In this document: piece by piece, positions 2,152 through 19,600 of the stretch
Position numbering within the stretch: the stretch's first letter is position 1
Layout of the letters: each line of letters starts with the position of its first letter
NCBI GenBank assembly: GCA_029259795.1
Contig: JAJDEM010000246.1
Coordinates: forward strand, 1 to 32,273
Length of the DNA stretch: 32,273 bases
Direction of reading: 5' to 3'
Origin: Planctomycetota bacterium
GTDB lineage: Bacteria > Planctomycetota > PLA2 > JAEUHO01
Program-made: the position numbers and the translations under genes
Notes under the pieces: generated by a model
The model's database searches: none
What the model saw: the letters and a program-made list of their open reading frames with translations, nothing else
What the model was told of the DNA's origin: nothing

Positions 2152-3450
2152 CTACTTGGCGGGGGGCGTGACCACGGGCGGGGGCATGGGCTTCATCGGT
2201 CGCGTCGCCTTCTTCAGGAACAGGATGGCCCACGCGGTGTCGAGTACGGCGCTCGCCTTGTACTCCTTGCCGCCGAGCATGCCGGTGTTCCAGCTGCCGT
2301 CGCCGCCTTGGCGACCGACCAGATAGCGCGCGCCTTCCAGGTACCAGTCGTGCGCGCCGATCAGGGTGCGGCTTCCGTAGATGGCCGCGCGCTCCAGACC
2401 GTAGAGGTAGTAGAAGTGCCACGGCGGCGCGGCACGACCGGGGTTGCGTTCGACGGTGAAGTTCACGTCGAGCCACGCGAAGCCGTCTTGCACGGCGCGC
2501 TTGACCCGGTTCTCGAGCTTGCGGTTGTAGATGGGCAGGCGCTTCGGCTGGGTGAGGGCGTCGTGGCAGATGGCCAGGGAGGCGATGCCCGCCGTCGTCA
2601 TGCTGCCGGTGGCGCCCGGCGCGCTCGCCATGTACCCCCACCCCCGGGCGCGGTCACCGCCGTCGATCTTGTAGATCGAATCGCCCTTCTTCTCGCCGCC
2701 GAGGGTGCGCAGCACTTTCGGGCCGTCTTGCTCCTGCAAGATCAGTAGGCGATCGATGACGCGCTTGAATACGCGACCGGGGACGACGCCGCCGCACTCG
2801 CGAGCTGCACGCAGGCCCAGCAGGGCGTACTGCGTGTTCGACATGTCTTCGCGGGGCTTGGGGTAGCCGAACCCGCCGGCGTCTTCCTGGGTGTTCACCA
2901 AGAACATGGCCATGTCCTTGATCCACTCGAGCACCTCGCGGGGCAGGCTGCAGGGGTTGCGCTTCGCCTCCTTGGTGATGGTGTGGCGCTTCTTGCGCCC
3001 TCCGGCCTTGGCCTTGGACCGGTAGTACTGGGTGGCGAACATCAGGAGCGTCCCGGTGTCGTAGGTGGTCCGGCTGCCCGCAGCCCCGCGGTCCTTGTCT
3101 TGGCCGCGGCAGTAGGCCATGGCGGCGTCGACATGCTTGTCGCCCTGCTTGTCGCCGGCGGCCAGCAGGGCGAGCCCGCCAAGCGCCGTGGTGCCGACCG
3201 TGTAGTGGCGGTCGCTGCCGTGGTGCACGCCCCCGATGAGGCCATTTTGCTTCTGCTCGGAGCGCAGGTACACAGCCCCCTTCTCGATGGCCTTGTCGAT
3301 GGCCTTCTGAAGGGCGCGGTCGGGCACCCCCGGCGTGCCCTTGGGGGCCGCGAGCCCCTCCGGGGGGCTGCCAAGGAAGGCGAGGGCGAGGAGGGCCCAC
3401 AGGAGCCGCCCGCAGGGGCGACCGCGGGTGGGTCGGGATCGTTTGTGCAT
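2152..3450 (-). CDS. Secreted prenyltransferase/squalene-cyclase-like alpha-alpha toroid protein
   Basis: N-terminal signal peptide (RLLWALLALAFLGSPPEGLAA), repeated toroid/QW-like segments (GGFGYPKPREDMSNTQYALLGLRAA, GSMTTAGIASLAICHDAL, QGGDGSWNTGML...VLDTAWAILFLKKA). No DXDD catalytic motif seen. Confidence 0.72.
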   Translation of the reverse strand: MHKRSRPTRGRPCGRLLWALLALAFLGSPPEGLAAPKGTPGVPDRALQKAIDKAIEKGAVYLRSEQKQNGLIGGVHHGSDRHYTVGTTALGGLALLAAGDKQGDKHVDAAMAYCRGQDKDRGAAGSRTTYDTGTLLMFATQYYRSKAKAGGRKKRHTITKEAKRNPCSLPREVLEWIKDMAMFLVNTQEDAGGFGYPKPREDMSNTQYALLGLRAARECGGVVPGRVFKRVIDRLLILQEQDGPKVLRTLGGEKKGDSIYKIDGGDRARGWGYMASAPGATGSMTTAGIASLAICHDALTQPKRLPIYNRKLENRVKRAVQDGFAWLDVNFTVERNPGRAAPPWHFYYLYGLERAAIYGSRTLIGAHDWYLEGARYLVGRQGGDGSWNTGMLGGKEYKASAVLDTAWAILFLKKATRPMKPMPPPVVTPPAK

Positions 3451-3680: not shown

Positions 3681-4424
3681 ATGAGCGCCGCCTCGACCCC
3701 GACCCCGGCCGTTGTGTACGGCCCCGCCGTCGAGCCGGCCGCAGGGACGCGGCCGCTGGCGCCGCGTGCGCTGAGCCTGCCGATGAAGCGGCACCGGCGA
3801 GGCGATGCCGAGGCGCGCCGCACGCGTCAGGCCGCCGACCGGGTCCTCGTCGATGGCATCCTGCGGGGTGACGAGGACGCCTTCCGAGGGCTTGTCGAGC
3901 GCTATCAGCGCCCGCTCTTCTGGGTCGCCAACGACATCCTCCTCGATGCCGACGAGGCGCGGGATGTGGTCCAGGAGACCTTCATCCGCGTGCACGCGGC
4001 CATCGAACGCTACGACCGCAGCCGGGATCTCATGAACTGGCTGTTCCGGATTGCCCGCAACCTCGCGATCGACCACTACCGCCGCCGGCGTCGTCGCGCG
4101 CTGCCCGTCGAAGATGTCGCCCAGGTCGTCGGCGGTGCCGACGAGCGCTCCGGGGCCGCGTCGGCGCTCGAGGGCACAGACCACGCGCCGTCGGCCGACT
4201 TGCCGGACCAGGTCGCCGCGGTCCTGGCCTTGCTGCCTGTGGACTACCGCCTCGCGCTCACGCTGCGCGAGTTCCACGGACTCGCGCCCCGCGAGATTGC
4301 CCGCGTCACGGACTGCAGCTACCCGACGGCGCGCTGGCGCCTGCACCGCGCGCGTGCATTGTTCCGCAAGGCCTGGGAGGAGCGCTATGGCGCCGCCCCG
4401 GTCTTCGAGGGGGGCTCCGCATGA
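3681..4424 (+). CDS. RNA polymerase sigma factor, ECF (RpoE-like) family
   Basis: GDEDAFRGLVERYQRPLFWVANDILLDADEARDVVQETFIRVHAAIERYDRSRDLMNWLFRIARNLAIDHYRRRRRR ... LLPVDYRLALTLREFHGLAPREIARVTDCSYPTARWRLHRARALFRK. Confidence 0.92.
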   Translation: MSAASTPTPAVVYGPAVEPAAGTRPLAPRALSLPMKRHRRGDAEARRTRQAADRVLVDGILRGDEDAFRGLVERYQRPLFWVANDILLDADEARDVVQETFIRVHAAIERYDRSRDLMNWLFRIARNLAIDHYRRRRRRALPVEDVAQVVGGADERSGAASALEGTDHAPSADLPDQVAAVLALLPVDYRLALTLREFHGLAPREIARVTDCSYPTARWRLHRARALFRKAWEERYGAAPVFEGGSA

Positions 4425-5167
4425 GTGCGCCGCTGCCGCTTTGCGAAGCGCTCCGCGCGGCCGAGGCCGCGCTGGATGACCTCACCCGGGAGCGCCTGGC
4501 GCATCCCGAGCGAGAGGTCCATGAGGCCGAGGCGCGCGTACGCCGGGCGATGGCGACGCTGGGCGAGGCCGCACCGCAGCCGCTGAGTGCTGAGCTTCAG
4601 GCCCGCCTCGACACGCTGCTGGCGCGGCATGCCCTGCACGCACGGGCCGTCCCGGGGCGGGTCCTCGAGGGGCTGTTCGAGGCGGTGCAGGCGGGAGCTG
4701 GGGCCGATCGCTGGGGCCGGGCCGGCATGAGCGGTGCGTTCCTCGATGCCCCCCGCAGCCTGGGCCGCTGGCGGGCCTTGGCAGCGGCGGCCTGTGTGCT
4801 GTTGTTCGCTGGTGGCGGCCTCCTGAGCCAAGCGCGGGTCTCGTTCGACGAACCGCCCGGAGTGCAGCCGCTGCAGGATCCCCGCGATGAGCTCCTTCCG
4901 CGCCTCGACGCCCCAGCGGTCAGCGCTGCGAGCGCGCGTCGGGCACTCGAGCCGGTCGGGGACGCGGTGCCTGTGGGTCATGCGCCCGCGCGCAGGGACG
5001 GCCGGGGCGCCCCGCGTCGCGGCGTCGTCTCGTTTCACATCCTGGGTTCGGGCGGTGTCGCCGGTCGGATCTCCATCGACGAGGTCCGGGTCCTGGACGC
5101 GGCCGCGCGGCGCCTGCGCGTGCCGGGCCCGGTCCGGGTATCCGTCGATGACGATGAGACGAACTGA
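4421..5167 (+). CDS. Candidate anti-sigma factor, single-pass membrane protein
   Basis: ATGA start/stop overlap with the upstream ECF sigma gene; N-terminal helical cytoplasmic-type region, one TM segment (RWRALAAAACVLLFAGGGLL), C-terminal extracytoplasmic region. Assigned by position and topology; no zinc anti-sigma motif seen. Confidence 0.55.
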   Translation: MSAPLPLCEALRAAEAALDDLTRERLAHPEREVHEAEARVRRAMATLGEAAPQPLSAELQARLDTLLARHALHARAVPGRVLEGLFEAVQAGAGADRWGRAGMSGAFLDAPRSLGRWRALAAAACVLLFAGGGLLSQARVSFDEPPGVQPLQDPRDELLPRLDAPAVSAASARRALEPVGDAVPVGHAPARRDGRGAPRRGVVSFHILGSGGVAGRISIDEVRVLDAAARRLRVPGPVRVSVDDDETN

Positions 5168-5171
5168 TCCG

Positions 5172-6383
5172 ATGCCGGCCGTGCGTGCCGCGGCAGACTG
5201 CGCGTCCGGGCGGGCTGCCTGGGGCTTGCTCGTGGCGCTGGCCCTGACCGCGCCTTCGGCGTACGCCGAGGACGAGCCGAAGCCGGCCCCGCTGGTGCCC
5301 GCGAACGCGACCCCCGTCGCCCCGGCGACCCCGGCCGAGACAACGGCAGAGGCCGGCGCGAGCGCCGCCGAGCTGGCCGTGGCGCGCGCCGCCCGTCCCT
5401 CGGTGGCGCGGGTCCGCCTGCGCGACCCGCGCTTTGGCGATCGAACGATGACCCGGCACGCGGTCGTCGTGCGTCGCGACGGCCTGTTCCTCATGGCCGG
5501 GCCCCCGCCTGGGCGGGCGGGCACAATCACGCTGGTACTGCACGACGGCCGCCAACTCCGGGCGCGGCAGCTGGGCCACGATGCCGAGACCGCGCTCACG
5601 CTGCTTCGGGTTGCGACGACCAATCTGCCCGCGTTGCGCGGCGCGGCGGGGACGCCGCAGGCGGCGGGCTCGACGAAGACGCCGCGAGCCCCAGCGGCCA
5701 AGCCCGCGCCGCTTGGCCTGCCCGCCTTGGGCAGCCGGCTGGTCATGGTCACGGGGGATGATGCCGTCGCGGTGGGTCCCGTGCGTGCCCACGGCCGGAT
5801 CGGCTCGCTGCGCGACCCCGACCGGCGGATCGTGATTCGTACGACGGGTCTCGTCGGGGTGGCGCTGGCAGCGGTCGACACCGATGCCGGCGCGCCCTTG
5901 CTCGATGGGGCCGGTCGGCTGGCCGGTCTGCTCGTGGGGCGGAGAGCCACGATCGCGCCCGCCCCCGGCGAGCGTCCTGCGGCCCAGGGCCTGAAGGTCC
6001 GACCGCGTCCCGTCGAGGCCGTCATCGTGCCAGCTGAAGTGGTGCGGCTAATCTGGCCCCTCCTCGAGGAGCACGGCCGCGTGCCGCGCGCGGGGCTGGG
6101 GATCAAGACCCAGGCGCTGGACGAGAGCCTCCGCGCGCATCTCGGTCTGAAGTCCGGCGGCCACGTGATTCGGAGCCTCGAGCCTGGGGGCGCGGCGGCG
6201 CGCCAGGGCCTTCGCCGTCACGATGTGATCGTCTCCGTGGGGGGGCGCAAGGCTCCGCCCGGAACGAGCCTGCATGACCTCTTGCTGCCCTTCCGCCCTC
6301 GAGAGACGGTAGCCCTCGGCGTCACCCGTGGCGGCGCCTCGAAGCAGGTCTCCGTCGTTCTGGGCGAGCGCAGCCGCCGCTAG
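5172..6383 (+). CDS. HtrA/DegP-like trypsin-fold protein with PDZ domain, predicted catalytically inactive
   Basis: Signal peptide; HtrA-like pattern RHAVVVRRDGLFLMAGPPPG / LHDGRQLRARQLGHDAETALTLLRV / VDTDAGAPLLDGAGRLAGLLVG; PDZ domain RAGLGIKTQALDESLRAHLGLKSGGHVIRSLEPGGAAARQGLRRHDVIVSVGGRKAP. Alternative in-frame ATG at 5154. Confidence 0.72.
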   Translation: MPAVRAAADCASGRAAWGLLVALALTAPSAYAEDEPKPAPLVPANATPVAPATPAETTAEAGASAAELAVARAARPSVARVRLRDPRFGDRTMTRHAVVVRRDGLFLMAGPPPGRAGTITLVLHDGRQLRARQLGHDAETALTLLRVATTNLPALRGAAGTPQAAGSTKTPRAPAAKPAPLGLPALGSRLVMVTGDDAVAVGPVRAHGRIGSLRDPDRRIVIRTTGLVGVALAAVDTDAGAPLLDGAGRLAGLLVGRRATIAPAPGERPAAQGLKVRPRPVEAVIVPAEVVRLIWPLLEEHGRVPRAGLGIKTQALDESLRAHLGLKSGGHVIRSLEPGGAAARQGLRRHDVIVSVGGRKAPPGTSLHDLLLPFRPRETVALGVTRGGASKQVSVVLGERSRR

Positions 6384-6562
6384 GCCAGCCCCCGCCAGGG
6401 CAGGCCCGAATTCCGCTGTCCGGTCGCAGCGCCGGGGGGCGTATATCCGAGTGGCACGGAGACCAGGCTGGGCAAGGACGCTCCGGTCGGTCGTAACTCA
6501 AGAAATGACAGGTCGTTACGGTCGAACCTCGTCGTAGATGACCCGCGCTTCAGGGCACACGC

Positions 6563-8326
6563 ATGACGGACTCCACCCCCAACACCCCCGATCTGCCGCA
6601 GGACGGCGGCGATGCCGAGGCCGGGTGTGGGCACACGGACGCTGACGCGGGGGCTGAGAGGGGGGCGGCGGAGCTTCTCGTGGACGCCCTGGCCCTCCTC
6701 GCCAGCGAACAGCATACGAACGGCCCAAGCGCTATCGGTGCCGAGCGGCTTCCTGCCGAGTTGCGCGCCCGGGCGCTGGCGGCGTTCGACGCGTCCCTCC
6801 GGGAGGCTGCCTCCGAGAGCCTGCCGGTCGAAGCGCGGCAGACCGCCGTCGCGGGCCACGCAGCCGAGCGCTTCAGCGATGACCTCCTCGCAGAGGCGCT
6901 CCTGCTGGAGGCCCTGGCAGCAACCCCCGCGGAGGGCCTCTCCCTCGGCGTCCGGCACGCGGCCCTTGCCTGCTTCGAGCCCGCGGCGGAGCTCGCGAGC
7001 GCTGCTGCCCCGGTTGGGCAGGCCGCCCCGGTTGGACAGGCCGCCCCGGTTGGACAGGCCGCCGTGCGCGCACGGCCGCTGCGGGGCCGCCAGCTGAAGC
7101 CCTTGTTCGGCGCCCGCGGGCTGGCCGTGGCTGCGCTGCTCCTGGTTGGCGTTGGGATCGCGTTCCTGCTCGCCGGCGACGGCGAGGAGGCCTACGCCGG
7201 TCTTACGCTGCGCGCCTTGGCGCGCGCCGACACCGCCGGGGCCGTTCAGACCTCGCGGGTCGAGCCCGGCTACCGCGCCGCGTTCGGGCGCCGCTTCACG
7301 CCGAGCGAGGACGAACTCCTGAGCTTCCGCTTCGCACACGACGCCATGCTCGTCGTCGGGGCGGGAGATGCCGTCCGCGTCAGCCGCACCGCGCTGGTCG
7401 ACGCCCAGGCGTTGCAGCGCGGCGCGACACGCACGCCAGTCCACCTCTTGCGTCTCGAGTCGGGCGAAGCCCAGCTCGCGACGCGCGAGCATCCCATCCC
7501 GTTGGAGATCGACGGGATTGGCGTGCTGGTGCTGGAGTCCGGCGCGGCGCATGTCGCGGTGGACGCCGGCGATGGTGCGCACGCACCCGCCGTTGCCCTG
7601 CACGCCCACAGCATCGCCCGCTTCTACCGCGCGGACGGAAGCGCGTCGGTGCCGCTCGTCGGTCCGGCCCGGGTCCTGCTCGCTGCCGACGGCATCAAGG
7701 CCTTCGGTGCGCCGGCCCGGGGGCTCTTCCACGATCTGCGCTTCTTCGGGGGCTCGCTGCCGGCGACCACGACGGAGCGGGCCGTGTCCGCGCGGCTCTT
7801 CCGCGCTCGCGCGACGAACGGCGCCTTGCGTCGAGGCCGGCAGGACGTTCGCGTCCTGGCGCGCAGCGGCGAGGCGGCCGACATGCTGCTCACGTGGACT
7901 CCGGAGCCGGCCGTCGGCGCGGCCTACGCGCTCAAGGTGGCGCTGCGGGCGCCTGCCGGCACGCGCGTGAGCCTCGCGCAGAAGCGCGCCGTCGAGGGCG
8001 AGACCGGGAACGCAGCACCGGCCCTGGCGACAGCCACCGTCGTCCGGACGGACGGTGCTGGCGAGCCGGACGGCGCCGGCGAGCCGGGCGTGGCCGTCGT
8101 CACGCTGGCTCTGCCGCGAGATTGGCTCGAGCGCCTTCCCGGCGGTCGGGTGGAACTTCGGCTGGAGTGCCCGGCAGCCACCAAGCCGGCGGCCACCAAG
8201 CCGGCGAGCGCCAAGCCCACGACAACGCCTGCGAAGACAGCCCGCGCCGTCATCGCCTGGTTTGACGGCATCGCGCTGGTCTTCGGTCCCGAGCCCGAGG
8301 GCCGGGATGGACGGCAGGCGCACTAG
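6563..8326 (+). CDS. Single-pass membrane protein with FecR-like extracytoplasmic region
   Basis: Acidic/Ala-rich N-terminus, TM (GLAVAALLLVGVGIAFLLAG), then FecR-like beta-rich stretch (HLLRLESGEAQLATREHPIPLEIDGIGVLVLESGAAHVAVDAG). FecR assignment is by eye. Confidence 0.55.
   Translation: MTDSTPNTPDLPQDGGDAEAGCGHTDADAGAERGAAELLVDALALLASEQHTNGPSAIGAERLPAELRARALAAFDASLREAASESLPVEARQTAVAGHAAERFSDDLLAEALLLEALAATPAEGLSLGVRHAALACFEPAAELASAAAPVGQAAPVGQAAPVGQAAVRARPLRGRQLKPLFGARGLAVAALLLVGVGIAFLLAGDGEEAYAGLTLRALARADTAGAVQTSRVEPGYRAAFGRRFTPSEDELLSFRFAHDAMLVVGAGDAVRVSRTALVDAQALQRGATRTPVHLLRLESGEAQLATREHPIPLEIDGIGVLVLESGAAHVAVDAGDGAHAPAVALHAHSIARFYRADGSASVPLVGPARVLLAADGIKAFGAPARGLFHDLRFFGGSLPATTTERAVSARLFRARATNGALRRGRQDVRVLARSGEAADMLLTWTPEPAVGAAYALKVALRAPAGTRVSLAQKRAVEGETGNAAPALATATVVRTDGAGEPDGAGEPGVAVVTLALPRDWLERLPGGRVELRLECPAATKPAATKPASAKPTTTPAKTARAVIAWFDGIALVFGPEPEGRDGRQAH
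7007..7060 (+). repeat. 3 x 18-bp in-frame tandem repeat encoding APVGQA
   Basis: gccccggttgggcaggcc / gccccggttggacaggcc / gccccggttggacaggcc. Confidence 0.95.
8174..8218 (+). repeat. 3 x 15-bp in-frame degenerate repeat encoding AATKP/ASAKP
   Basis: gcagccaccaagccg / gcggccaccaagccg / gcgagcgccaagccc. Confidence 0.85.
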
Positions 8327-8400
8327 ACATGCTGGATAGAATCACCAATCGCACGCGGTGCGTTCGGCCTCTTCGCCGAACTCACCCCGGAGGTACGACG

Positions 8401-11400
8401 ATGCTTACGACCAAACTTCGCTCCTTGGGTTCGTGTACGCACGCGGGGGCAACGGCCCGCTCGCGCGGTGTCGCGATGCTCATCGTCATCACGATCCTCG
8501 TGACGATGGTGCTTGTGGCCTTGCCCTTCGCGCTCTCCATGCGCCAAGGCCAGGACCGCACCCAGGCCGTCGGGGCCCGTGCGCGTGCGCGGCTCGAGGC
8601 AGAGAGCCTCGCCGAGATCGCCAAGCTCTACCTGGGCTCCACCACCCCCTGGCAGGAGCAGAAGCGCGCCAACCAAGGCGGCATGGGCGTCGACTCGATG
8701 CCGCTGGTCGACAGCCTCGCGGAGATCACCCCGAACGACGCGTTCCGGTCCACGATCGAGAACGAGATCATCACGATGTGGGAGAAGGACCCGTCCACAG
8801 CCGGTCGGGCCAAGTACCTCAAGTCGCGCGGCCTCGGCCCGATGAACGATGATCGTGGCTCCATCTGGACCGTCCTCATTGAGGATGCCCAGGCACGCGT
8901 GAACGTCAACGGCGGTCAGATGTTCCTGCTCGCCAACCTCATGGGGTCGGCTCTCCTTGCCGACGAGGTCGATACCGGCGGCGGCGATATTGCGGTCGAG
9001 CACGTGGTCACCGGCCGCTTTGGCGGTCTGCGCGGCTTCAACCCGAAGGGTGGCTACATCCGCATCGGTCGGGAAGTCATCAAGTACGAAGAGTTCGACG
9101 GCGAGGCCTTCCGGGGGTGCGAGCGTGGCGTCCTGATGGGCACACCGCTCGGCGACAACGGAACGGCCCAAGCGCACAAGCGCGGCGTGCCCGTGATCGA
9201 CTACACCGCCTACAAGCTCGCGACGCACATCATCGCGAGCCGCCCCGGCGAGCTCGCGCCCTTCGAAAACCTCGAGTCGCTGCGCGCCATCAGCGGCTGG
9301 GGCGAGGATGGCGTCCTGTCCGCCGATCGCCTCGAGCGCGTCCTGCCCTACCTCACCGTCTGGAGCAAGCGCGAGTCGTCCGCGACGTGGCTTGCCGATC
9401 AGCTCGTCATGAACGAGCTGCCCGGGTCCCTCGATGGCGGCGAGCCCGAGGAGCTGCAGCTGCGCGATTTCCGCGCCAACCCGTCCGGCACCTCCGCCTA
9501 CCTCAACCCGGGCTGCATCGCGCGCATCAGCAATGGCGTGCGCTCGGTCTACCAGGTCATCGATCAGGTCGGCGACCGTGAGGGTCGTCGCCGCGACGCG
9601 TTCGCGACCACAGCCGGCAGCGTCTCGGCAAGTGTCCCCGAGTCCCAGCGCGAGCACGTGAAGTACCAGGGCGGCGAGACCAAGGTCGCCGCGCTCGCGC
9701 CGTACCCGATCAACATCAACACGGCCTCGCGCGAGGTCCTCTACGCCGTGATGGCCAACGTCCAGCTCTGGCGCGCCGAGGGCAAGGACCAGGTCGTCAC
9801 CCCCGAGCTTGCATGGTCCCTGGCTGGCGAGATCGTTCGCGAGCGCAAGGGACCGCTGAGCGCGGACAAGGACTCCGGCGCCCGTAAGAGCGGTCCGTTC
9901 CGGCACGCGACCGACTTCGGCCGCTGGCTTGAGATGAAGGTCAAGAGCAGCGAGATCAAGCGTGAGCACCACGCGGCCCTCTACATCAACGCCATCAACC
10001 CGCACAGCTCGCAGCTGCGCTTCGGTACGGCGCCGTGGAACTTCCGTACGCTCGACGTCTACCACCTCGAGGCCCGCGTCGCCCTCAACAACCGTGCTGG
10101 TGAGCAGATCGCCGAGTCGAGTGTCCGTGAGGTCGTCGAGATCGGCTCGGACGCTGTCGCGAGCGCCACCCTCGACTCGCAGGACGACTTCGAGATGCGC
10201 CTTGCCATGGGCAGCGGTGCCAAGTGGGTCACGACCTACCCCTTCGGTGTGGCCTGGAAGAGCAAGTCCCACGCGCACATCCAGCCCGCCATCCGCGGTC
10301 CGAAGAGCATTCTCTACAACATCTACCCGAGCGTGACCCGCGGCCAGGACATGGGGGATGTGCGTCTCGAGCCCGTCCGCATGCTGCTGCCCGGCGCACA
10401 GGTGGAAGAGCACTTCGACAACAATCACTATGCCGACGGCCACTACACCGGCTACGACCAGGCCTACACGCGTCCCGTGAAGGACACCTTCATGGGCCGT
10501 ACGGACAACATGGTGCGGCCCTTCTCGATGTCCTTCTGGTGGCGTCCGTACAGCGACCAGGACTGGACCGTCTTCGACACCGGCGTCGAGGAGTACATGA
10601 ACCGTTTCGCGCTGTTCGTCCAGGATGGCGAGAAGGGGCAGGAACTCACCTTCCGCTGCTCGGCGGGCAACAACTGGCGACAGGCCGCCGAGGTCTACGT
10701 GCCGATGGAGCAGCTCGACTATGAGCCCGGCACCTGGTACCACATCCATGTCTCGTGCTTGGGCGAAGACCCCGCGACGATGCAGTTGCTCATCGACGGC
10801 GTCGACATCGGCAAGCGCCGCGGCATGACCCGCACCAGCGGTTCGGTCACCATGGACAGCGAGGAGATCGCCGTCGAGAGCACGGATGGCTTCCCGGTGC
10901 GTGGCTCGATCCGGATCGGCCGCGAGATCATCGAGTACGAAACCCTGACGGACTCCGCGTTCCGTGACTGCTTCCGCGGTCAGCGCGGCACCGCAGCGCT
11001 CGAGTACCCGGCGAACACCCCCGTCTACATCAACGGCTACTCGATGCCGCTCACAGTGGATGTGATGAAGGGCGGCGCGTCGATCAACGAGCGCCTCGGC
11101 AAGTGGTCGGCCCTGCGCATCTCCACCATGACCGGAACGCCGGCCCCGGACACCGTGCCTGTCGTTCTCGACGGCATGACGACGCCCATCATCCTGGCGG
11201 GCTTCGGGCCCGAGCAGCGCAACATCAGCGTGACGGGTGTTGGCATGTGGGGCCAGGACGACGCCGAGGGCGCTGAGGCGTTCCCGACGCGCGGCCTCGC
11301 GCTCATGGGCTGCCCGGAGATCGCGAACGCCACCACGGGCTCCGGCGGTCCCGCCGGCCCGGCCGCGAACGCAATGCGCAGCATCGCCGCCCCCGCGGAT

Positions 11401-14400
11401 GGCGAGCCGCTCCCTGAACAGCCCGAGGGCGACGAGGGTCCCGAGGAGGGCGGCGAGCCGCGTCCTGGTGACGGGGTACCTCCCGGTCGTGAAGTGCCGG
11501 ACGGCGAGGGCGGTGGCGATCCCGTGCCGGTCCCGGATGGCGAACCGGCGCCCGACACCGGAGACGGCGGCGGCGAGGACCCCGCCGCGGGCGGTGGCTC
11601 CGACATCAAGCTCGGCGGCTGGGAGGTCGTCTACTACGAGCGCAGTGGCAACGAATTCACCATCGAGCGCTACGTCAAGTCCGCGTGGCAGGGGGAAGCC
11701 GATCCGTACTTCCTCATCACCGAGAACCAGACCGCGCAGACCGAGTTCCCCGCGTTCCTGGTTCCGATCTCCGTGATGGCCTCGGGCGGCACCGAGCAGG
11801 GCCAGGACTACCTCGATCCGAGTGAGCCGGCGCACGAGACGATCCTCACCCGCTACTACCCGAACGAGCCGGCAAGCGCGTACGTCGCGCTGTCGACGGA
11901 CGGCGTGCCCGAGGGTGAACTCGAGATCATTCGCTACGACTCCATCGAGCGCAACCGTGCGGCACCGGACATCCTGTTTGTCCGTGATCGCAACATCGGT
12001 GGCGTGACCAGCCACTTCTTCGGCAACTCGCAGACGTTGGCGGGCGGATCGGCCACGCCGGATCCCGACGACACCGAGCCGCCGGTGCCGCCGCTCCCGG
12101 ATGAAGAGCCGCCGGTGCCCCCGCCGCCGGGCGATGACACACCCGATCTTCCGCCCCAGGACGGACCGGACAGCCCCGAGGAAGGCGGCGACCCGACGCC
12201 CGGCGACGGCCTGCCCCCCGGGCAGCGTCAGCCGACCGATCCCACCGGGGACGACGGCGGCGAGCCCACCGATCCCGGCGGTGGCGGTGACACCGGCGAC
12301 GGCGACGGCACCGGCGACGATGATGGCGCGCCCCTCCCGAGTCCGGGTCCCGGCGGTGATGTCGAGCCCGGCGACGACGAAGGCGAAGACGGCGAGCCGA
12401 TCGACCCGACCGACGACGGCAGTGGGTCCGGCGGCGGTGGCGGTGGTCCGCTGGATCCGCAGGACGGCGAAGGCGGTGAAGAAGAAGGCGGCAGCTTCGA
12501 TGGCGGTGACGACGTCGGACCCGGCGATCGCCCGGGTGGGGACGCCGACGGTGGCGGAGCCGCGCCCGGCGACGGCGCCGGCGACGGCCCCCCCGAAGAA
12601 GAGCCGGCACCGGATGAGTCCGGCGGCGGCTCCGGCGGCGGCGAAGAGGAAGAGGGCGATGCCAAGATCCCGAGCGTGCCCCCGGGCACCCGTGATCCGT
12701 CCGACGGCGATGCCGGCGGCGACCAGGAAGACAACGGCGACGAGATCGGCAACGGCGCCGTCTGGGAGCCCGAGGGCCCGACGACGGCAGCCGCCCAGCT
12801 CAGGTTCCGTGGCTACGTGGGTGACAACCCGCAGCAGCAGGATGGTGGCGGGGACGCCCTGGCCGCCCGCCTGGGTCTCGACCACGGCGGCGCCTCGGGG
12901 GACAACCTCGCGTACTTCCTGCCGTGCTTCCGTGCCTGGGAGGCGTCCAACGGGGCGGCTCTGGCTCGCACCGGCCGCAACGACGTGATCACCATCAGCA
13001 CGGGCGGCGAAGAGCCGACGCGCGTGGAGGTCGGCGTGCGGTGGGGCGATCCGACATCGGACTGGACGGCCCTCGACGACTGGGTGGAGAATCGCGTGGA
13101 GGCTCCGGCGACCGGGGCGACGACGCGTCGCAACGACCCGCGGGGTTACCCGCGCATTCTGCGCTTCCCCTGCGGTGAGCTGCCGGACGACATGAGCCAG
13201 GACGTCGAGTTCGGCCAGAGCCAACTCTCGGGCGCGGGCCTCGTGACGGCCTTCCTCGACGAACTGTTCGTCTGGCGACACACCCACGACACGCGGCTCT
13301 TCGTGAACAACAACGACGGCCTGACGGAAGAGGGCGATGAGATCCGCATTGCCAATGGTGGGACGAATCAGGACCTGAGTACGCTCGATGGCTACGACCG
13401 CAAGTGCGGACTCGTCCTGGTCGGCGGCGAGCTGATCGCCTACCGCGACAGCCGCATGGAGGGCACCAACACCCTCGTCCTCGAAGGCTGTGAGCGCGGC
13501 ATCATGGGGACGGCTACGGCCTTCCACCCCATTGGCGACCCGTTGCGCTTCCTGCCGGATCTGCCCGTGTCCTATCTTGAAGGCGGCATGACCGCGGAAG
13601 GGGCGAGCGTCCCGATGGCCCGCACGAACGGCTGGCCCAAGGAGGGCACGGTCCGGATCCTGCGGGAGGACACCGCGGAGATGGTGCACTACACGCGCAT
13701 GAGCAACGGCGAGTTGCTCATGCCGGAGTCGATCGACAACGACAACCGCTCCCGTGGGCGTGGACTGTTCCGAGGTCGCTACGGCACCGACGCCACCGAC
13801 CACGACTCGCGTGAGATCGTGCTCTTCCAGCCGTTCCGGTTCTGGGACCGCTACACCCCGCGGCGGGGCGAGAGTGCCGATGCCTTCGACGGCATCCACG
13901 ACCATCCCGAGTGCTCGTACCTGGAGCTCGGCTCCAAGGCCCGCTCTGCGCTCTGGCGTGGGTTCACGTGGTCGGAGAACCTGCGCGGTCGTCTCAGTGG
14001 CTCCGACGGGGGCGTAGGCAACAACGATGGCTCGGAAGCCAGCAGCGGCTACATGGACATCTACGTGCTCGCGCGCTTCAACCCGAACGTCCCGTGGGAC
14101 ACGGACCAGATCGTCGATCTGCGCCAGGACCAGGGCATGGGCCGCAAGGCCGACCTGTCCGGGAAGCAGAACTCCCACCTGTTCATCTTCGACGACACGG
14201 GCTCTTCCGCGATCGGCCACGGCCGCTCCGGCAACGAGCTCAACGTCGAGTCGGACACGGCGGAGTTCCGCCTCTACTTCGTGTACAAGGCCAATGCGTT
14301 CACGCCTGTTGACAGTGCGCGGCGTGGGGGTGGGGGCTCGCTCGAGGAACCCGTGCTCAGCAACCCCTGGAAGCAGACGCCCTGGCTGCGGGCGTTCAGC

Positions 14401-14451
14401 CTGAACTACTTCAGCCGGACCGAGACCCGCTACAAGGCCGTCGAGCGCTAG
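8401..14451 (+). CDS. Giant GspK-like (type II secretion minor pseudopilin) protein with LamG-like segment, acidic Gly/Pro/Asp linkers and repeated 'IRIGREII.Y...RG..GT' modules
   Basis: Shine-Dalgarno GGAGG at 8389-8393 ahead of ATG 8401 (2016 aa). N-terminus SRGVAMLIVITILVTMVLVALPFALSMRQ resembles type IV pilin/GspK leader and helix; PFENLESLRAISGWGEDGVLSADRLERVLPYLTVWS and PININTASREVLYAVMANV resemble GspK; FSMSFWWRPYSDQDWTVFDTG...WYHIHVSCLGEDPATMQLLIDGVDIGKRRG resembles LamG/concanavalin. Confidence 0.75.
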   Translation: MLTTKLRSLGSCTHAGATARSRGVAMLIVITILVTMVLVALPFALSMRQGQDRTQAVGARARARLEAESLAEIAKLYLGSTTPWQEQKRANQGGMGVDSMPLVDSLAEITPNDAFRSTIENEIITMWEKDPSTAGRAKYLKSRGLGPMNDDRGSIWTVLIEDAQARVNVNGGQMFLLANLMGSALLADEVDTGGGDIAVEHVVTGRFGGLRGFNPKGGYIRIGREVIKYEEFDGEAFRGCERGVLMGTPLGDNGTAQAHKRGVPVIDYTAYKLATHIIASRPGELAPFENLESLRAISGWGEDGVLSADRLERVLPYLTVWSKRESSATWLADQLVMNELPGSLDGGEPEELQLRDFRANPSGTSAYLNPGCIARISNGVRSVYQVIDQVGDREGRRRDAFATTAGSVSASVPESQREHVKYQGGETKVAALAPYPININTASREVLYAVMANVQLWRAEGKDQVVTPELAWSLAGEIVRERKGPLSADKDSGARKSGPFRHATDFGRWLEMKVKSSEIKREHHAALYINAINPHSSQLRFGTAPWNFRTLDVYHLEARVALNNRAGEQIAESSVREVVEIGSDAVASATLDSQDDFEMRLAMGSGAKWVTTYPFGVAWKSKSHAHIQPAIRGPKSILYNIYPSVTRGQDMGDVRLEPVRMLLPGAQVEEHFDNNHYADGHYTGYDQAYTRPVKDTFMGRTDNMVRPFSMSFWWRPYSDQDWTVFDTGVEEYMNRFALFVQDGEKGQELTFRCSAGNNWRQAAEVYVPMEQLDYEPGTWYHIHVSCLGEDPATMQLLIDGVDIGKRRGMTRTSGSVTMDSEEIAVESTDGFPVRGSIRIGREIIEYETLTDSAFRDCFRGQRGTAALEYPANTPVYINGYSMPLTVDVMKGGASINERLGKWSALRISTMTGTPAPDTVPVVLDGMTTPIILAGFGPEQRNISVTGVGMWGQDDAEGAEAFPTRGLALMGCPEIANATTGSGGPAGPAANAMRSIAAPADGEPLPEQPEGDEGPEEGGEPRPGDGVPPGREVPDGEGGGDPVPVPDGEPAPDTGDGGGEDPAAGGGSDIKLGGWEVVYYERSGNEFTIERYVKSAWQGEADPYFLITENQTAQTEFPAFLVPISVMASGGTEQGQDYLDPSEPAHETILTRYYPNEPASAYVALSTDGVPEGELEIIRYDSIERNRAAPDILFVRDRNIGGVTSHFFGNSQTLAGGSATPDPDDTEPPVPPLPDEEPPVPPPPGDDTPDLPPQDGPDSPEEGGDPTPGDGLPPGQRQPTDPTGDDGGEPTDPGGGGDTGDGDGTGDDDGAPLPSPGPGGDVEPGDDEGEDGEPIDPTDDGSGSGGGGGGPLDPQDGEGGEEEGGSFDGGDDVGPGDRPGGDADGGGAAPGDGAGDGPPEEEPAPDESGGGSGGGEEEEGDAKIPSVPPGTRDPSDGDAGGDQEDNGDEIGNGAVWEPEGPTTAAAQLRFRGYVGDNPQQQDGGGDALAARLGLDHGGASGDNLAYFLPCFRAWEASNGAALARTGRNDVITISTGGEEPTRVEVGVRWGDPTSDWTALDDWVENRVEAPATGATTRRNDPRGYPRILRFPCGELPDDMSQDVEFGQSQLSGAGLVTAFLDELFVWRHTHDTRLFVNNNDGLTEEGDEIRIANGGTNQDLSTLDGYDRKCGLVLVGGELIAYRDSRMEGTNTLVLEGCERGIMGTATAFHPIGDPLRFLPDLPVSYLEGGMTAEGASVPMARTNGWPKEGTVRILREDTAEMVHYTRMSNGELLMPESIDNDNRSRGRGLFRGRYGTDATDHDSREIVLFQPFRFWDRYTPRRGESADAFDGIHDHPECSYLELGSKARSALWRGFTWSENLRGRLSGSDGGVGNNDGSEASSGYMDIYVLARFNPNVPWDTDQIVDLRQDQGMGRKADLSGKQNSHLFIFDDTGSSAIGHGRSGNELNVESDTAEFRLYFVYKANAFTPVDSARRGGGGSLEEPVLSNPWKQTPWLRAFSLNYFSRTETRYKAVER
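12055..12760 (+). repeat. Low-complexity region encoding a Gly/Pro/Asp/Glu-rich acidic linker of about 235 aa
   Basis: Translation PDPDDTEPPVPPLPDEEPPVPPPPGDDTPDLPPQDGP...GGGSGGGEEEEGDAKIPS; a related shorter block lies at about 11391-11601. Confidence 0.9.
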
Positions 14452-14826: not shown

Positions 14827-15390
14827 ATGGACGCAACCAACATCCGCAAGGGCAGCTTCATCAAGCACAAGGACGACCTCTGGCAGGCCGTCGATGTGAC
14901 CCATCGCACCCCCGGGAACAAGCGGGGCTTCGTGCAGGTCAAGATGCGCAACATGCGTACGGGCTCGCATGTCACCGAGAAGTTCTCGTCCAACGAGAAC
15001 GTCGAGGGCGCCTGGCTCGACTCCCGCAAGGCGCAGTACCTCTACGATGACGCCCAGACCGGCCCGGTGTTCATGGATACCGAGAACTTCGAGCAATACA
15101 GCCTCGACCGTGAGGTGCTCGGCGACACGATGAACTACGTCAAGGAGAACGACGAGTTCGAGGTGACGTTTCACGAAGGCACGCCCATCGGCCTCAGTCT
15201 TCCGGCCAAGGTCGATCTCGTGATCATCGAGACCGACCCCGCCGTGAAGGGCGATACCGTCAACAGCGTCATGAAGGACGCCAAGCTCGAGACCGGCTTT
15301 GTGATCAAGGTGCCGGGGCACATTCGCCAGGGCGACAAGATCCGGGTCAGCACCGCGACCGGCGAGTTCCAGGAACGCGTCAACGACTGA
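14827..15390 (+). CDS. efp: Translation elongation factor P
   Basis: MDATNIRKGSFIKHKDDLWQAVDVTHRTPGNKRGFVQVKMRNMRTG...VLGDTMNYVKENDEFEVTFHEGTPIGLSLPAKVDLVIIETDPAVKGDT...KLETGFVIKVPGHIRQGDKIRVSTATGEFQERV. Confidence 0.93.
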   Translation: MDATNIRKGSFIKHKDDLWQAVDVTHRTPGNKRGFVQVKMRNMRTGSHVTEKFSSNENVEGAWLDSRKAQYLYDDAQTGPVFMDTENFEQYSLDREVLGDTMNYVKENDEFEVTFHEGTPIGLSLPAKVDLVIIETDPAVKGDTVNSVMKDAKLETGFVIKVPGHIRQGDKIRVSTATGEFQERVND

Positions 15391-15407: not shown

Positions 15408-16100
15408 ATGGCAGCGCGCAAGAGCATCCTGGCCCACCGCCTGACGCAGACGCTGATCGTCTTGCTCCTGCGCTGGTATCGCGGCTTTGTCTTCGGAACG
15501 TACTTGTTCCGACACGATCGACGCCTGCTGCGCGTGCTGCGGAGCGACGAACCGGTGGTGTTCGCCACCTGGCACCAGGACTTCGTACACACCTTCGGGT
15601 ACTTCTCCCGCTGGAACGCGCGCCGCAAGACCTACCCACTCGCGAGTGCGAGCCGTGATGGCGGCCTCGCCAGCGTGTCCGCGGAGGCGATGGGCTTTCG
15701 TCGGCCGATCCGCGGATCCTCGGCGCGCGGCGGCCAGAAGGCCTTGCTCCAGCTCACGCGCTTGCTCAAGGACGATCCGCGCGCGTCGGTCGGTGTCGTG
15801 TGTGACGGCCCGCGACCGCCCCCGCGGGTCCTCAAGCCGGGCATCCTGCATCTGGCCAAGACGTCCGGTCGCCCGATCTGGCTTGTGCGGACCTCGTATG
15901 AGCGCGTCAAGGTGCTCAAGCGCACCTGGGCGGCGTTCCACATCCCCATCCCGCTCTCCCGGGCCGTGGTGCTGGCCGATGGTCCGATCCGCGTGCCGGC
16001 CGACCTCGATCGCGCCGGCCTGGAGGCACTGCGCGTGGAGGTCGAGCAGCGGCTGAACGCCCTGGCCGACCGAGCGGACGCGCTGGTCGCGCGCGCCTGA
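15408..16100 (+). CDS. DUF374/COG2121-type lysophospholipid acyltransferase-like protein
   Basis: VVFATWHQDFVHTF, SRDGGLASVSAEAMGFRRPIRGSSARGGQKALLQLTRLLKDD, GVVCDGPRPPPRVLKPGILHLAKTSGRPIWLV match the DUF374 pattern. Confidence 0.82.
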   Translation: MAARKSILAHRLTQTLIVLLLRWYRGFVFGTYLFRHDRRLLRVLRSDEPVVFATWHQDFVHTFGYFSRWNARRKTYPLASASRDGGLASVSAEAMGFRRPIRGSSARGGQKALLQLTRLLKDDPRASVGVVCDGPRPPPRVLKPGILHLAKTSGRPIWLVRTSYERVKVLKRTWAAFHIPIPLSRAVVLADGPIRVPADLDRAGLEALRVEVEQRLNALADRADALVARA

Positions 16101-16106
16101 CCCTAC

Positions 16107-16180
16107 GCGCGATCGGGCCGCCGCTAGGCGCGGTCGGGCCGCCGCTAGGCGCGATCGGGCCGCCGCTAGGCGCGATCGGG
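16107..16180. repeat. About 3.5 copies of a 21-bp tandem repeat (GCGCGATCGGGCCGCCGCTAG) between convergent acyltransferase genes
   Basis: 16107-16127, 16128-16148 (one A to G change), 16149-16169, partial 16170-16180. Confidence 0.95.
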
Positions 16181-17203
16181 ATCGTGCAGGCTGTACGCGG
16201 GGTAGCGGCCCAGCTCGACCGTGGGGCGGCTCTTCCAGCGCTTCAGCGTCCAGTTCCACAGCTCGGGCTTGGCGCGAATGACCTCCTCGAGCACGCCGTT
16301 GATGCGCGTCAGCAGCGCGACCAGGCGCTCGTGTTCGTCGCCTTCGGGGAGGTCGGCGGCAAGGTTGGGGCCGAGCCAGAGGCGGTAGCGATCATCGTCC
16401 GTGGGGAAGCAGAAGATCGGGAAGACAGGCACGTTGTGGCGGAGTGCGATCCAAGCCGGCAAGGGGGATGTGCGTGCTTCAAGTCCCATGAACGGCGCGA
16501 ACACGCCGCCCTGCTTGCGGCGCACGTTGCGGTCGACCAGCAGTGCCGCGGTGCCGCCCTGGGCCACGGCGTTGATCACGGCACGCGCCCCGCCCTTGCG
16601 GAACGCGGCGATCACATCGCCGTGACTGCGCAGCCTCTTGAGCACGCTGTTGACCGCGCCGTGGGGGATCTGCTCGGCGAGGAACGCGGTCGGGGGGAAG
16701 TCTTGGAACAGGACCCGCAACCCCAACATCATCTCCCAGTTGCCGATGTGCCCGGAGACGAGAACGCCACCCTGCTCGCGGAGCATGTCCGCCTGCCAGG
16801 CATCGCGGATCGTCTCGGGAACATCGACCCACTTGTGATAGCGCTTCGCGCTCATCGGCTGCAGGTGGAAGAGCAGGAAGATCGCGCGCACCAGCTGGCG
16901 GTAGGCACGCCGGTGGATGCGCTGCTTCTGGGCTCGGGTCTTCTCGTCACCGAACACGAGGTCGAGGTTGGCGTGGGCGGCGCGCAGGCCCCGGCGATCG
17001 AGCACGGAGAGCGCATTGCCGAGCGCATCCGCCGTCGCAAGGACCCAACGCGAGGGCACCGCCGCGATGATCTTGATGCATCCCACGGCGACGGGCACGG
17101 CCACGGTTTCGACGAGCTTCAGGTGGCGCAGGCGCTGGCTCAGGCGCATCCAGGGGCTCCGCCGGGAGGCGGCGGTCTGGGAGGGAGGAGTGCGGGAAGC
17201 CAT
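16166..17203 (-). CDS. LpxL/HtrB-family lipid A (Kdo2-lipid) acyltransferase-like protein
   Basis: VLVSGHIGNWEMMLGL (HX4E motif), AFLAEQIPHGAVNSVLKRLRSHGDVIAAFRKGGARAVINAVAQGGTAALLVDRNVRRKQGGVFAPFMGLEARTSPLPAWIALRHNVPVFPIF, ELWNWTLKRWKSRP. Confidence 0.88.
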   Translation of the reverse strand: MASRTPPSQTAASRRSPWMRLSQRLRHLKLVETVAVPVAVGCIKIIAAVPSRWVLATADALGNALSVLDRRGLRAAHANLDLVFGDEKTRAQKQRIHRRAYRQLVRAIFLLFHLQPMSAKRYHKWVDVPETIRDAWQADMLREQGGVLVSGHIGNWEMMLGLRVLFQDFPPTAFLAEQIPHGAVNSVLKRLRSHGDVIAAFRKGGARAVINAVAQGGTAALLVDRNVRRKQGGVFAPFMGLEARTSPLPAWIALRHNVPVFPIFCFPTDDDRYRLWLGPNLAADLPEGDEHERLVALLTRINGVLEEVIRAKPELWNWTLKRWKSRPTVELGRYPAYSLHDPDRA

Positions 17204-17737: not shown

Positions 17738-19600
17738 ATGCGTCGCTGCCTCATCGTGTGTCTGGTTCTCGCCGCGGGGGCGCCCGCGCGCGCCGAAGAA
17801 GGGAAGGAGGCGGCCTGGTTCACCAACGTCGCGGCCGAGGTGGGCCTCGGGGCAGTGAAGGCCAAGGACTGCATCTTCACCGATCTCGACGGCGACGGCT
17901 TCTGGGACCTCTGCATCGACCGGCAGCACTTCTACCTCTCGAAGGCAGGCCGCCGTTTCGAGGCGCATACCAAGCACGGCATCGAGTTCCCGGCCATCCG
18001 CAAGGTGCCGGTCGGGAAGGACGGCAAGGCCGACGAGGCCAAGGCGAAGGACATCACCTTTGCACCGCACTATCTCTACTTCGCGGATCTGAACAACGAC
18101 GGGCATCAGGATGCCGCCTGGGGCGTGCACGCGTGGTGGGAGCGCCTTGATGGGCGCACTTGGAAGGACGTCGAGGGGTGCGACCCGGGTGTGCGGAGCA
18201 CGATCTGGCTTGGCACCGGCAAGGGACGGTTCAAGCGCGGCCCCGCCTCGGGCTACACGGCCAAGGACGCCGTCGGTCCTGCGATGGCACTCGCCCTCGT
18301 CGACGTCGACAACGACGGGGTGCTCGACCTCTACGAGGGGCGGGAGTATCGGCAGTACGGACAGCTCGTCGGCTGCGGTGTCGACCGGCTCTGGAAGGGC
18401 GACGGCAAGGGAGGGTTTGTCGACGGCACCGAAAAGGCCGGTCTGCTGACGAGCCCGCAGCCCTTCACCGGGCGCACCCTCCCGGAGAAGGGCAAGCGCG
18501 ACGTCCTGCGCTTCTCCCGGCCGACGTACGGCGTCACGCACTGCGACTGGAACAACGACGGCCACCAGGACCTTCTGCAGCTGGCCTACGGACGGCAGTG
18601 GAACTACCTGTGGCGCAACAACGGCGACGGGACGTTCACCGACGTCGGCCTCGACACCGGCTTTGCCGGCGACGAGGTGACGGATGGCAAGTACCCGGCG
18701 TTCGTGCGCCGGCCGCCGGAAGCGCCCTTTCGAAGCAACGGCAACACGTTCGATTGCGCCATCGGGGATCTCGACAACGACGGGGACTTGGACTGCTTCC
18801 TCGGCGAGATCGCCCACTTCTGGGCAGGGCCCGCCTCCGATGTGCCGTCGCTGCTTCACAATGGAGGCAAGGAGGCGAGTTTCGCCTTCGAGCGGGAGAC
18901 GGTGCGCGAGGCGTTTCCGCTGCGGAAGTTCCGCACGCCCGATCGCTGGAACTTCGGCGATCTCCACGCGGCCTTTCTCGACGTCGACAACGACGGGCGG
19001 CTCGACGTCCTGATCGGCTCGGGTGACTACCCCGATGGCCAGTACTTGCGCCTCTATCGCCAGACGGAGGCTGGGGGGTGGGACGAGGTCACCCAGATCG
19101 CCGGCTTTGATTGGGAGGGGTGTGGCGATCTCTCGATCGGGGACTTCGATCGTGACGGGGACGTGGACATCCTCGCGGGACGCTCGTTCATGCGCTTGAA
19201 CAAGGCGCACCGCGAGCAGTACATGGGCGGCATCGAAACCAATCTCGTCGGACTCTTCCGCAACGACATCGCGAATCGCAACGGCAACCACTGGCTGAAC
19301 GTGCGCCTGGTAGGCAAGGGGCAGGGCGGCGCGAATCGCACCGGAATCGGCGCGCGCGTGAGCGTCACTGCCGGGGGCATTACCCAGATGCGCGAGCTGC
19401 GTGCTGGCAGCGGCCTCGCGAATCACCAGGACGCGCCCGAAGCCTGCTTCGGACTCGGCAAGGCCACCACGATCGACCGACTCGAGGTGCGCTGGCCCAA
19501 CGCCAAGCGTGACGTGCAGGTCTTCACGGACGTGCCCGTGGATCGGTTCCTGACCGTCCGTGAAGGATCGAAGCGATGGAAGGCGGAGAAGCCGCGGTAG
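17738..19600 (+). CDS. Secreted FG-GAP/VCBS beta-propeller protein with ASPIC/UnbV C-terminal domain
   Basis: Signal peptide; at least six DxDxDG-type motifs (DLDGDGFWD, DLNNDGHQD, DVDNDGVLD, DWNNDGHQD, DLDNDGDLD, DVDNDGRLD, DFDRDGDVD); C-terminal HWLNVRLVGKGQGGANRTGIGARVSVTAGG...RELRAGSGLANHQDAPEACFGLGKATTIDRLEVRWPNA. Confidence 0.9.
   Translation: MRRCLIVCLVLAAGAPARAEEGKEAAWFTNVAAEVGLGAVKAKDCIFTDLDGDGFWDLCIDRQHFYLSKAGRRFEAHTKHGIEFPAIRKVPVGKDGKADEAKAKDITFAPHYLYFADLNNDGHQDAAWGVHAWWERLDGRTWKDVEGCDPGVRSTIWLGTGKGRFKRGPASGYTAKDAVGPAMALALVDVDNDGVLDLYEGREYRQYGQLVGCGVDRLWKGDGKGGFVDGTEKAGLLTSPQPFTGRTLPEKGKRDVLRFSRPTYGVTHCDWNNDGHQDLLQLAYGRQWNYLWRNNGDGTFTDVGLDTGFAGDEVTDGKYPAFVRRPPEAPFRSNGNTFDCAIGDLDNDGDLDCFLGEIAHFWAGPASDVPSLLHNGGKEASFAFERETVREAFPLRKFRTPDRWNFGDLHAAFLDVDNDGRLDVLIGSGDYPDGQYLRLYRQTEAGGWDEVTQIAGFDWEGCGDLSIGDFDRDGDVDILAGRSFMRLNKAHREQYMGGIETNLVGLFRNDIANRNGNHWLNVRLVGKGQGGANRTGIGARVSVTAGGITQMRELRAGSGLANHQDAPEACFGLGKATTIDRLEVRWPNAKRDVQVFTDVPVDRFLTVREGSKRWKAEKPR

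Follow-up and report, generated by a model that had tools for sequence, protein, structure and literature searches.

A giant GspK-like pseudopilin with LamG and phage-tail-like modules, widespread in Planctomycetota

The giant gene

We analyzed a stretch of 32,273 bases (hereafter the window), which is the complete contig C164 (JAJDEM010000246.1) of a Planctomycetota bacterium whose genome comprises 4.29 Mb in 417 contigs and is estimated to be 89% complete. It carries an open reading frame (ORF) of 2016 amino acids (aa) that an earlier reading of the letters (the original prediction) took for a giant GspK-like pseudopilin with a large extension. The features of this gene, with their positions in the window, are the following:

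8389-8394 (+): Shine-Dalgarno sequence GGAGGT, 6 nt 5' of the ATG (sequence reading)
8401-14451 (+): giant GspK-like pseudopilin, 2016 aa (ORF reading and homologues)
8401-8469 (+): prepilin leader, predicted cut after Gly23, SRG↓VAML (sequence and alignment)
8470-10200 (+): GspK-homologous region, residues 24-600, broken by module copy 1 and a second insertion (hhalign; predicted local distance difference test, pLDDT, of AlphaFold2)
8986-9195 (+): phage-tail-like module copy 1, residues 196-265, inside the GspK region (module hidden Markov model, HMM; insertion visible in the hhalign alignment)
9709-9762 (+): T2SSK motif PININTAS, residues 437-454 (Pfam PF03934, below cut-off)
10516-10836 (+): LamG/concanavalin A-like lectin domain, residues 706-812 (Pfam PF13385; Foldseek LamG-like folds for the homologue L055)
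10864-11025 (+): module copy 2, residues 822-875 (module HMM; PHROG baseplate wedge and virion structural matches, 3e-10 and 2e-11)
11323-11661 (+): acidic Gly/Pro-rich block 1, residues 975-1087, net charge -19 (sequence)
11995-12858 (+): acidic Gly/Pro-rich block 2, residues 1199-1486, net charge -69 (sequence)
13375-13542 (+): module copy 3, residues 1659-1714 (module HMM; Pfam Rcc01698_C, E 2.4e-4, below cut-off)
13588-14448 (+): conserved C-terminal domain, residues 1730-2016, including module copy 4, residues 1736-1807 (alignment)

The ORF is real and intact. It is open throughout, with 0 internal stops in its translation, and its Shine-Dalgarno sequence is as well placed as the original prediction had it; an alternative in-frame ATG at 8329 lacks a comparable one. 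A frameshift or an assembly fusion, which the original prediction had named as dangers to its reading, and likewise a chance ORF, are ruled out by full-length homologues in independent genomes and assemblies.

The GspK-like region

The N-terminus (MLTT...ATARSRG followed by VAMLIVITILVTMVLVALPFALSMRQG) is a prepilin-type leader. The mature part begins VAMLIVITILV and has Ile instead of Glu at position 5, one of the peculiarities on which the original prediction had built its comparison with GspK. The pattern G↓(V/I/M/F)A(M/L/I) without Glu5 is retained in nearly all relatives. Across a 20-row alignment that covers the phylum, and that was too diverse to serve for a contig scan, Gly23 and Ala25 do not vary. 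Pfam N_methyl (PF07963) was absent at E<=1 in the full-length giant.

Judged by profile comparison, residues ~24-600 are homologous to GspK. A profile of this region was matched by hhalign to a canonical GspK profile (E. coli K-12 GspK, the 384-aa GspK encoded in the same genome, and four other GspK-like proteins) with a probability of 99.8 and an E-value of 1e-30 over 347 columns. The aligned columns take in the helix, both motifs (VxDAQxxxNxN and ININTA), and the final strands, i.e., nearly the whole length of GspK, and the LamG region of the giant, used as a negative control against the same profile, reached a probability of 0.1. With E. coli GspK and the genome's own canonical GspK alone, the probability was 96.3 over the N-terminal 110 columns only, and fell to 16.9 when the helix was removed. 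The strength of the match thus depends on the intermediate GspK-like sequences, which were retrieved by a pattern that includes the ININTA motif. This motif, already pointed out in the original prediction, lies within residues 437-454, gives a weak sequence-profile match to 5vtm_X (E 0.15), and is seen, as PININTA or as a weak Pfam T2SSK match, in 11 of the 24 aligned relatives. A phmmer search of the whole protein against the PDB returned nothing useful. The AlphaFold2 model of residues 1-960 has a mean pLDDT of 72.6, with block means mostly at 75-95 over residues 31-580. The assignment of the first ~600 aa to GspK holds by profile-profile comparison and, more than anything, by gene order, since the relatives occupy the GspK slot between GspH and GspJ.

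The extension

The LamG-like region claimed by the original prediction is recognized by Pfam Laminin_G_3 (PF13385, E 1.4e-6), above cut-off when residues 1-960 were scanned. The extension of the homologue L055 (1,069 aa) was modeled with a pLDDT of 70.7 and a predicted template modeling score of 0.70, and its best single-domain matches in the PDB are LamG-type folds (pentraxin, CBM40, agrin, NELL; Foldseek probability 0.98-1.00). Against viral models it gave one match of 241 columns (probability 1.00, root-mean-square deviation 5.2 Å). The top Foldseek rows for the 1-960 model of the giant itself were mainly lectin-like and viral domains. A toxin reading of the extension was rejected, as the matches to receptor-binding domains reflect the generic LamG/jelly-roll fold only and there is no sign of a toxin.

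The repeated modules also proved to be there. A module of ~58 aa occurs in four confident copies (E 3e-16 to 3e-21), found with an HMM that was partly trained on these same proteins, and most relatives carry it at comparable positions. Its sequence is similar to baseplate-wedge and virion structural proteins in PHROG, and Pfam Rcc01698_C is matched by 9 of the 24 relatives. The giant is not among phage or gene-transfer-agent structural genes: its neighbors are cellular, and the module alone is shared. The two acidic blocks of the original prediction are mostly limited to the window's order and look like linkers. The folded parts, among them the C-terminal ~290 residues, are conserved phylum-wide.

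Distribution in Planctomycetota

Of 149 genomes sampled evenly over the phylum, 97 (belonging to 81 of 124 genera) have the family according to a profile of the C-terminal domain, usually in a single copy and with ORF lengths mostly between 1,270 and 2,290 aa. The N-terminal 610 aa have relatives in 30 of 40 genomes. The original prediction had suggested looking for homologues of the same architecture; full-length relatives exist in independent genomes across the phylum. Those retrieved by contig scans are from Planctomycetota, nearly all of them metagenome-assembled genomes, and when 85,462 species genomes of bacteria and archaea were scanned with a pattern, the matches came almost exclusively from this phylum. 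The K gene is duplicated in the family f65 (also genomes G138 and G167), which has two or more copies, and the locus L068 carries two giant-K-like ORFs of ~1,300 aa in tandem (4088-8002 and 8463-12347). Smaller GspK extensions occur outside Planctomycetota too, as a metagenome-assembled genome of Omnitrophota (L081) encodes a GspK-like ORF of 675 aa that is extended at its C-terminus.

Operon context and cognate subunits

Outside the window's order, the giant is part of a fixed operon, PilM-PilO-TPR-GspG-GspH-giant K-GspJ-GspI, found at essentially every locus with sufficient flanking DNA. Pfam matches back the naming of PilM and the pseudopilins, and PilO, GspJ, and GspI were named from their position and pilin leader. 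GspJ lies immediately 3' of the giant in 77 of 97 genomes, with a median gap of 27 bp. The cognate GspJ profile (E<=1e-20) matched 93 of the 97 genomes with a giant and 0 of the 52 without one, the nearest miss among the latter being 7e-19; these co-occurrence counts were made by reading two tables. K and GspJ are also apart in a few other families (e.g., G130, G096). In the genomes G037, G110, G127, and G142 of family f23, the cognate GspJ frame contains one TGA, which may be a stop, a frameshift, or a recoded codon.

Two other subunits of the predicted tip resemble the giant in their domains. LamG-type domains were matched in the cognate GspH of L055 (6.9e-11), L057 (5.2e-6), L058 (1.4e-5), and the window's own genome (0.0017), with only L055 above cut-off, and the C-termini of most cognate GspJ are matched by the module HMM. 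By these matches, a single operon has the same two kinds of domain, LamG and the module, on three of its four minor pseudopilins.

The order of the window's genome

The original prediction had left open whether partner pseudopilin genes occur elsewhere in the genome. They do: contig C120 (L110) carries the cognate operon, whose PilM gene starts at the end of contig C81 (L109), and encodes PilO, TPR, GspG, GspH, GspJ, and GspI, but no K. Only 2 bp separate the GspH and GspJ ORFs. Profiles built without the genome's own sequences find all of these subunits (GspG 2e-45, GspH 6e-24, GspJ 3e-22, TPR 9e-18, GspI 1e-7, PilO 1e-6). ScpB is the next gene after the operon both here and in L058. A pair of pseudopilins on contig C285 was considered as the cognate operon and dropped, as C120 fits the conserved gene order. 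At the end of the operon region on C120 (L110:5-1570, -) lies a SurA/PpiD-like membrane protein with a T2SSG domain match (1.4e-9, residues 323-400).

The K-less operon, with GspH followed by GspJ, was found in 9 of the 9 sampled genomes of the order (this one and eight more). This indicates that K left its operon in this order, in the simplest case by a single event in the order's ancestor. At its new location, the giant has the following neighbors:

3681-4424 (+): ECF (extracytoplasmic function) sigma factor, conserved upstream partner in the order (Pfam; synteny)
4421-5167 (+): ORF without Pfam family, possibly an anti-sigma factor by its position (synteny)
4887-6383 (+): PDZ/HtrA-like protein, start uncertain, overlapping the preceding ORF (Pfam PDZ_2 8e-9; HtrA family; synteny)
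6563-8326 (+): probable membrane protein directly 5' of the giant gene, FecR-like by eye only (no Pfam family; synteny)
14827-15390 (+): elongation factor P-like gene (named by eye), downstream neighbor conserved in the family (synteny)

The upstream neighborhood is conserved in the family, and the sigma factor, the PDZ protein, and the gene at 2155-3450 also occur in other families of the order. As the K gene now stands beside an ECF sigma factor gene, the supply of the tip may be separately regulated there.

The genome also encodes T2SSE (GspE/PilB), T2SSF (GspF/PilC), secretin, and prepilin peptidase genes, all of them away from the contigs of K and its operon, with several sets of the ATPase, platform, and secretin. 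Further prepilin-like clusters (L111 on the genome's own contig C337, L112, L115) suggest that more than one type IV filament may operate in this bacterium. The canonical-size GspK-like protein of 384 aa (L043:7144-8298, contig C390) is encoded beside FG-GAP-type repeat proteins and a topoisomerase VI-like pair, both named by eye.

Proposed function and alternatives

We consider it probable that the giant is K, the tip pseudopilin, in a type IV filament of Planctomycetota, and that it would present a ligand-binding, probably glycan-binding, head. This reading is based on the GspK homology of the N-terminal third, the operon membership of the relatives, the co-occurrence with GspJ, and the presence of LamG and module domains. 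The tip adhesin or cargo-capturing cap put forward by the original prediction is plausible on these grounds, and is strengthened by the LamG match in the cognate GspH and the module in the cognate GspJ. Prepilin peptidase would cut the protein at G23↓V24, and the N-terminal helix would dock with GspI and GspJ at the tip of the filament, as in solved GspI-J-K tip complexes. The filament would be extended by an unlinked set of GspE, GspF, and secretin, and the ~1,400-aa extension would then show its LamG and phage-tail-type modules outside the cell to catch a ligand, most likely a glycan or another macromolecule. Flexible acidic linkers may hold the domains of the extension in members of the window's order.

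Several observations weigh against this proposal. Curated cut-offs for GspK are missed, both for Pfam PF03934 (18.2 against 24.2 bits, on the 960-aa piece) and for NCBIfam NF037980 (18.7 against 130), which is why we term the protein GspK-like or GspK-derived and not an equivalog. Structural support for the N-terminal part is indirect: when the 1-960 model, a multi-domain chain with insertions and thus a poor query, was compared with the PDB by Foldseek, nothing matched at E<=0.001 and GspK was absent from the top 50. The ATPase, platform, and secretin genes lie on other contigs than K or its operon. Lectin activity, surface exposure, cleavage of the leader, and the position at the tip are predictions from sequence. 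Finally, this reading requires a subunit of ~2,000 aa to pass through the outer membrane, and canonical GspK is not known to do so.

Alternatively, the giant could cap a pseudopilus that stays in the periplasm as part of a type II secretion system (T2SS), with its extension serving as a platform for substrate recognition or recruitment in the periplasm and not as an external adhesin. Four minor pseudopilins make up the tip complex of the T2SS, and that of Pseudomonas aeruginosa is reported to be critical for recognizing and binding substrates (PMC6211770), and planctomycetes are reported to have an enlarged periplasmic space (PMC5394234). The homology to GspK and the pseudopilins of the operon, named G, H, J, and I by similarity, agree with such a cap. 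Yet the first gene of the operon encodes a PilM-type protein, like those of type IV pili, no secretin is linked, and the LamG and phage-tail-like modules suggest external ligands. We regard the periplasmic cap as possible but rather unlikely.

It is much less probable that the giant is a surface or periplasmic protein that merely uses a pilin-like N-terminal anchor and takes no part in a filament. The locus in the window's order invites this idea, since the gene is off the operon and has genes for an ECF sigma factor and an HtrA/PDZ-like protein as neighbors, an arrangement conceivable for a locus of envelope stress or of surface proteins. However, the strong co-occurrence with the cognate GspJ, the operon position in the rest of the phylum, and the retention of the K-less operon in all nine sampled members of the order argue for a filament subunit. 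That the ORF is a fusion of genes, or a long frame open by chance in high-GC DNA, can be dismissed almost entirely: an antisense frame of 1965 aa (8323-14220, -) does lie opposite the giant, as is expected for a long high-GC gene and common in such genes, but the whole architecture is conserved across independent assemblies and families and the Pfam matches are in the plus frame.

Comparison with known systems

GspK is usually a small cap. The giant shares with GspK/XcpX/PulK (PF03934, NF037980, PDB 5VTM) the leader without Glu5, the long N-terminal helix, the V-x-D-A-Q-x-x-x-N and ININTA motifs, and the C-terminal beta strands, and its relatives, except in the window's own order, are positioned among G, H, I, and J pseudopilin genes. 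It differs in size (2016 aa against roughly 330-390 aa for canonical GspK, with 327 in E. coli K-12 and 384 for the canonical protein of its own genome), in two insertions within the GspK region, one of them a phage-tail-like module, and in the ~1,400-aa C-terminal extension. The gene order of the relatives is G-H-K-J-I, whereas that of E. coli is G-H-I-J-K.

Known modular pilins of type IV (PilB and PilC of Streptococcus sanguinis, CofB, ComZ) likewise have functional modules grafted onto a pilin module; in the giant, the grafted parts are a LamG domain above cut-off and the module copies. The concanavalin-type lectin of the S. sanguinis minor pilin PilC binds glycans (PMC9934059). A survey of modular pilins found over 1,200 of them, the most extreme multi-domain case highlighted being 860 aa long, and required an N-terminal IPR012902 domain, of N_methyl type (PMC8179133). 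As N_methyl is not detected in the giant, this survey would probably have missed the family. PilY1/PilC, the tip adhesin of type IVa pili, is also large, has variable modules, and is borne at the tip by a complex of minor pilins (PMC8179133), but PilY1 is not a pilin, whereas the giant would unite adhesin and tip pilin in one chain. The Kil Tad pili of Myxococcus xanthus have exchangeable tips made by minor pilins with large extra domains (PMC12075869); they are of the Flp/Tad class, with KilLMN tips, and GspK is unmentioned in that paper. The C-terminal domain of Rcc01698 (megatron) and the phage baseplate proteins matched by the ~58-aa module (PF23666, PHROG 2885, 4406) are tail parts of phages or gene-transfer agents (PMC7296036) and not pilins.

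Modular pilins are hence already known and diverse, and the giant GspK version appears new in the literature covered: no description of a phylum-wide giant GspK in a lectin- and module-decorated tip complex was found in searches of open-access full-text literature, outside which most subscription papers and bioRxiv preprints fall. It extends the idea of modular pilins to GspK and to chains more than twice as long as the most extreme example highlighted in the survey. A GspK some six times the usual size, mostly in single copy in about two thirds of the Planctomycetota sampled and accompanied by corresponding changes in GspH and GspJ, suggests a filament specialized at its tip. In planctomycetes, dextran binds pili-like fibers from crateriform structures and macromolecules are taken up by an uncharacterized route (PMC5394234). 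We hypothesize a link between the giant-K system and this binding and uptake. Planctomycetota might even possess a type IV filament of a class of their own, in which the tip subunits (H, J, and K) were rebuilt with LamG and phage-tail-type modules, K reaching ~2,000 aa, and which is the ligand-capturing arm of macromolecule uptake; we find this rather unlikely and offer it as a suggestion. The giant-K genes are concrete, testable candidates for the capture end of such uptake.

Other genes of the window

Two convergent acyltransferase-like genes lie further downstream (15408-16100, +, and 16166-17203, -), the second of which matches the Pfam lipid A acyltransferase family (1e-41), indicating synthesis of lipid A of lipopolysaccharide type. 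Downstream of it, 17738-19600 encodes a protein that was named by eye as being of FG-GAP/ASPIC-UnbV type and contains many calcium-type DxDxDG repeats.

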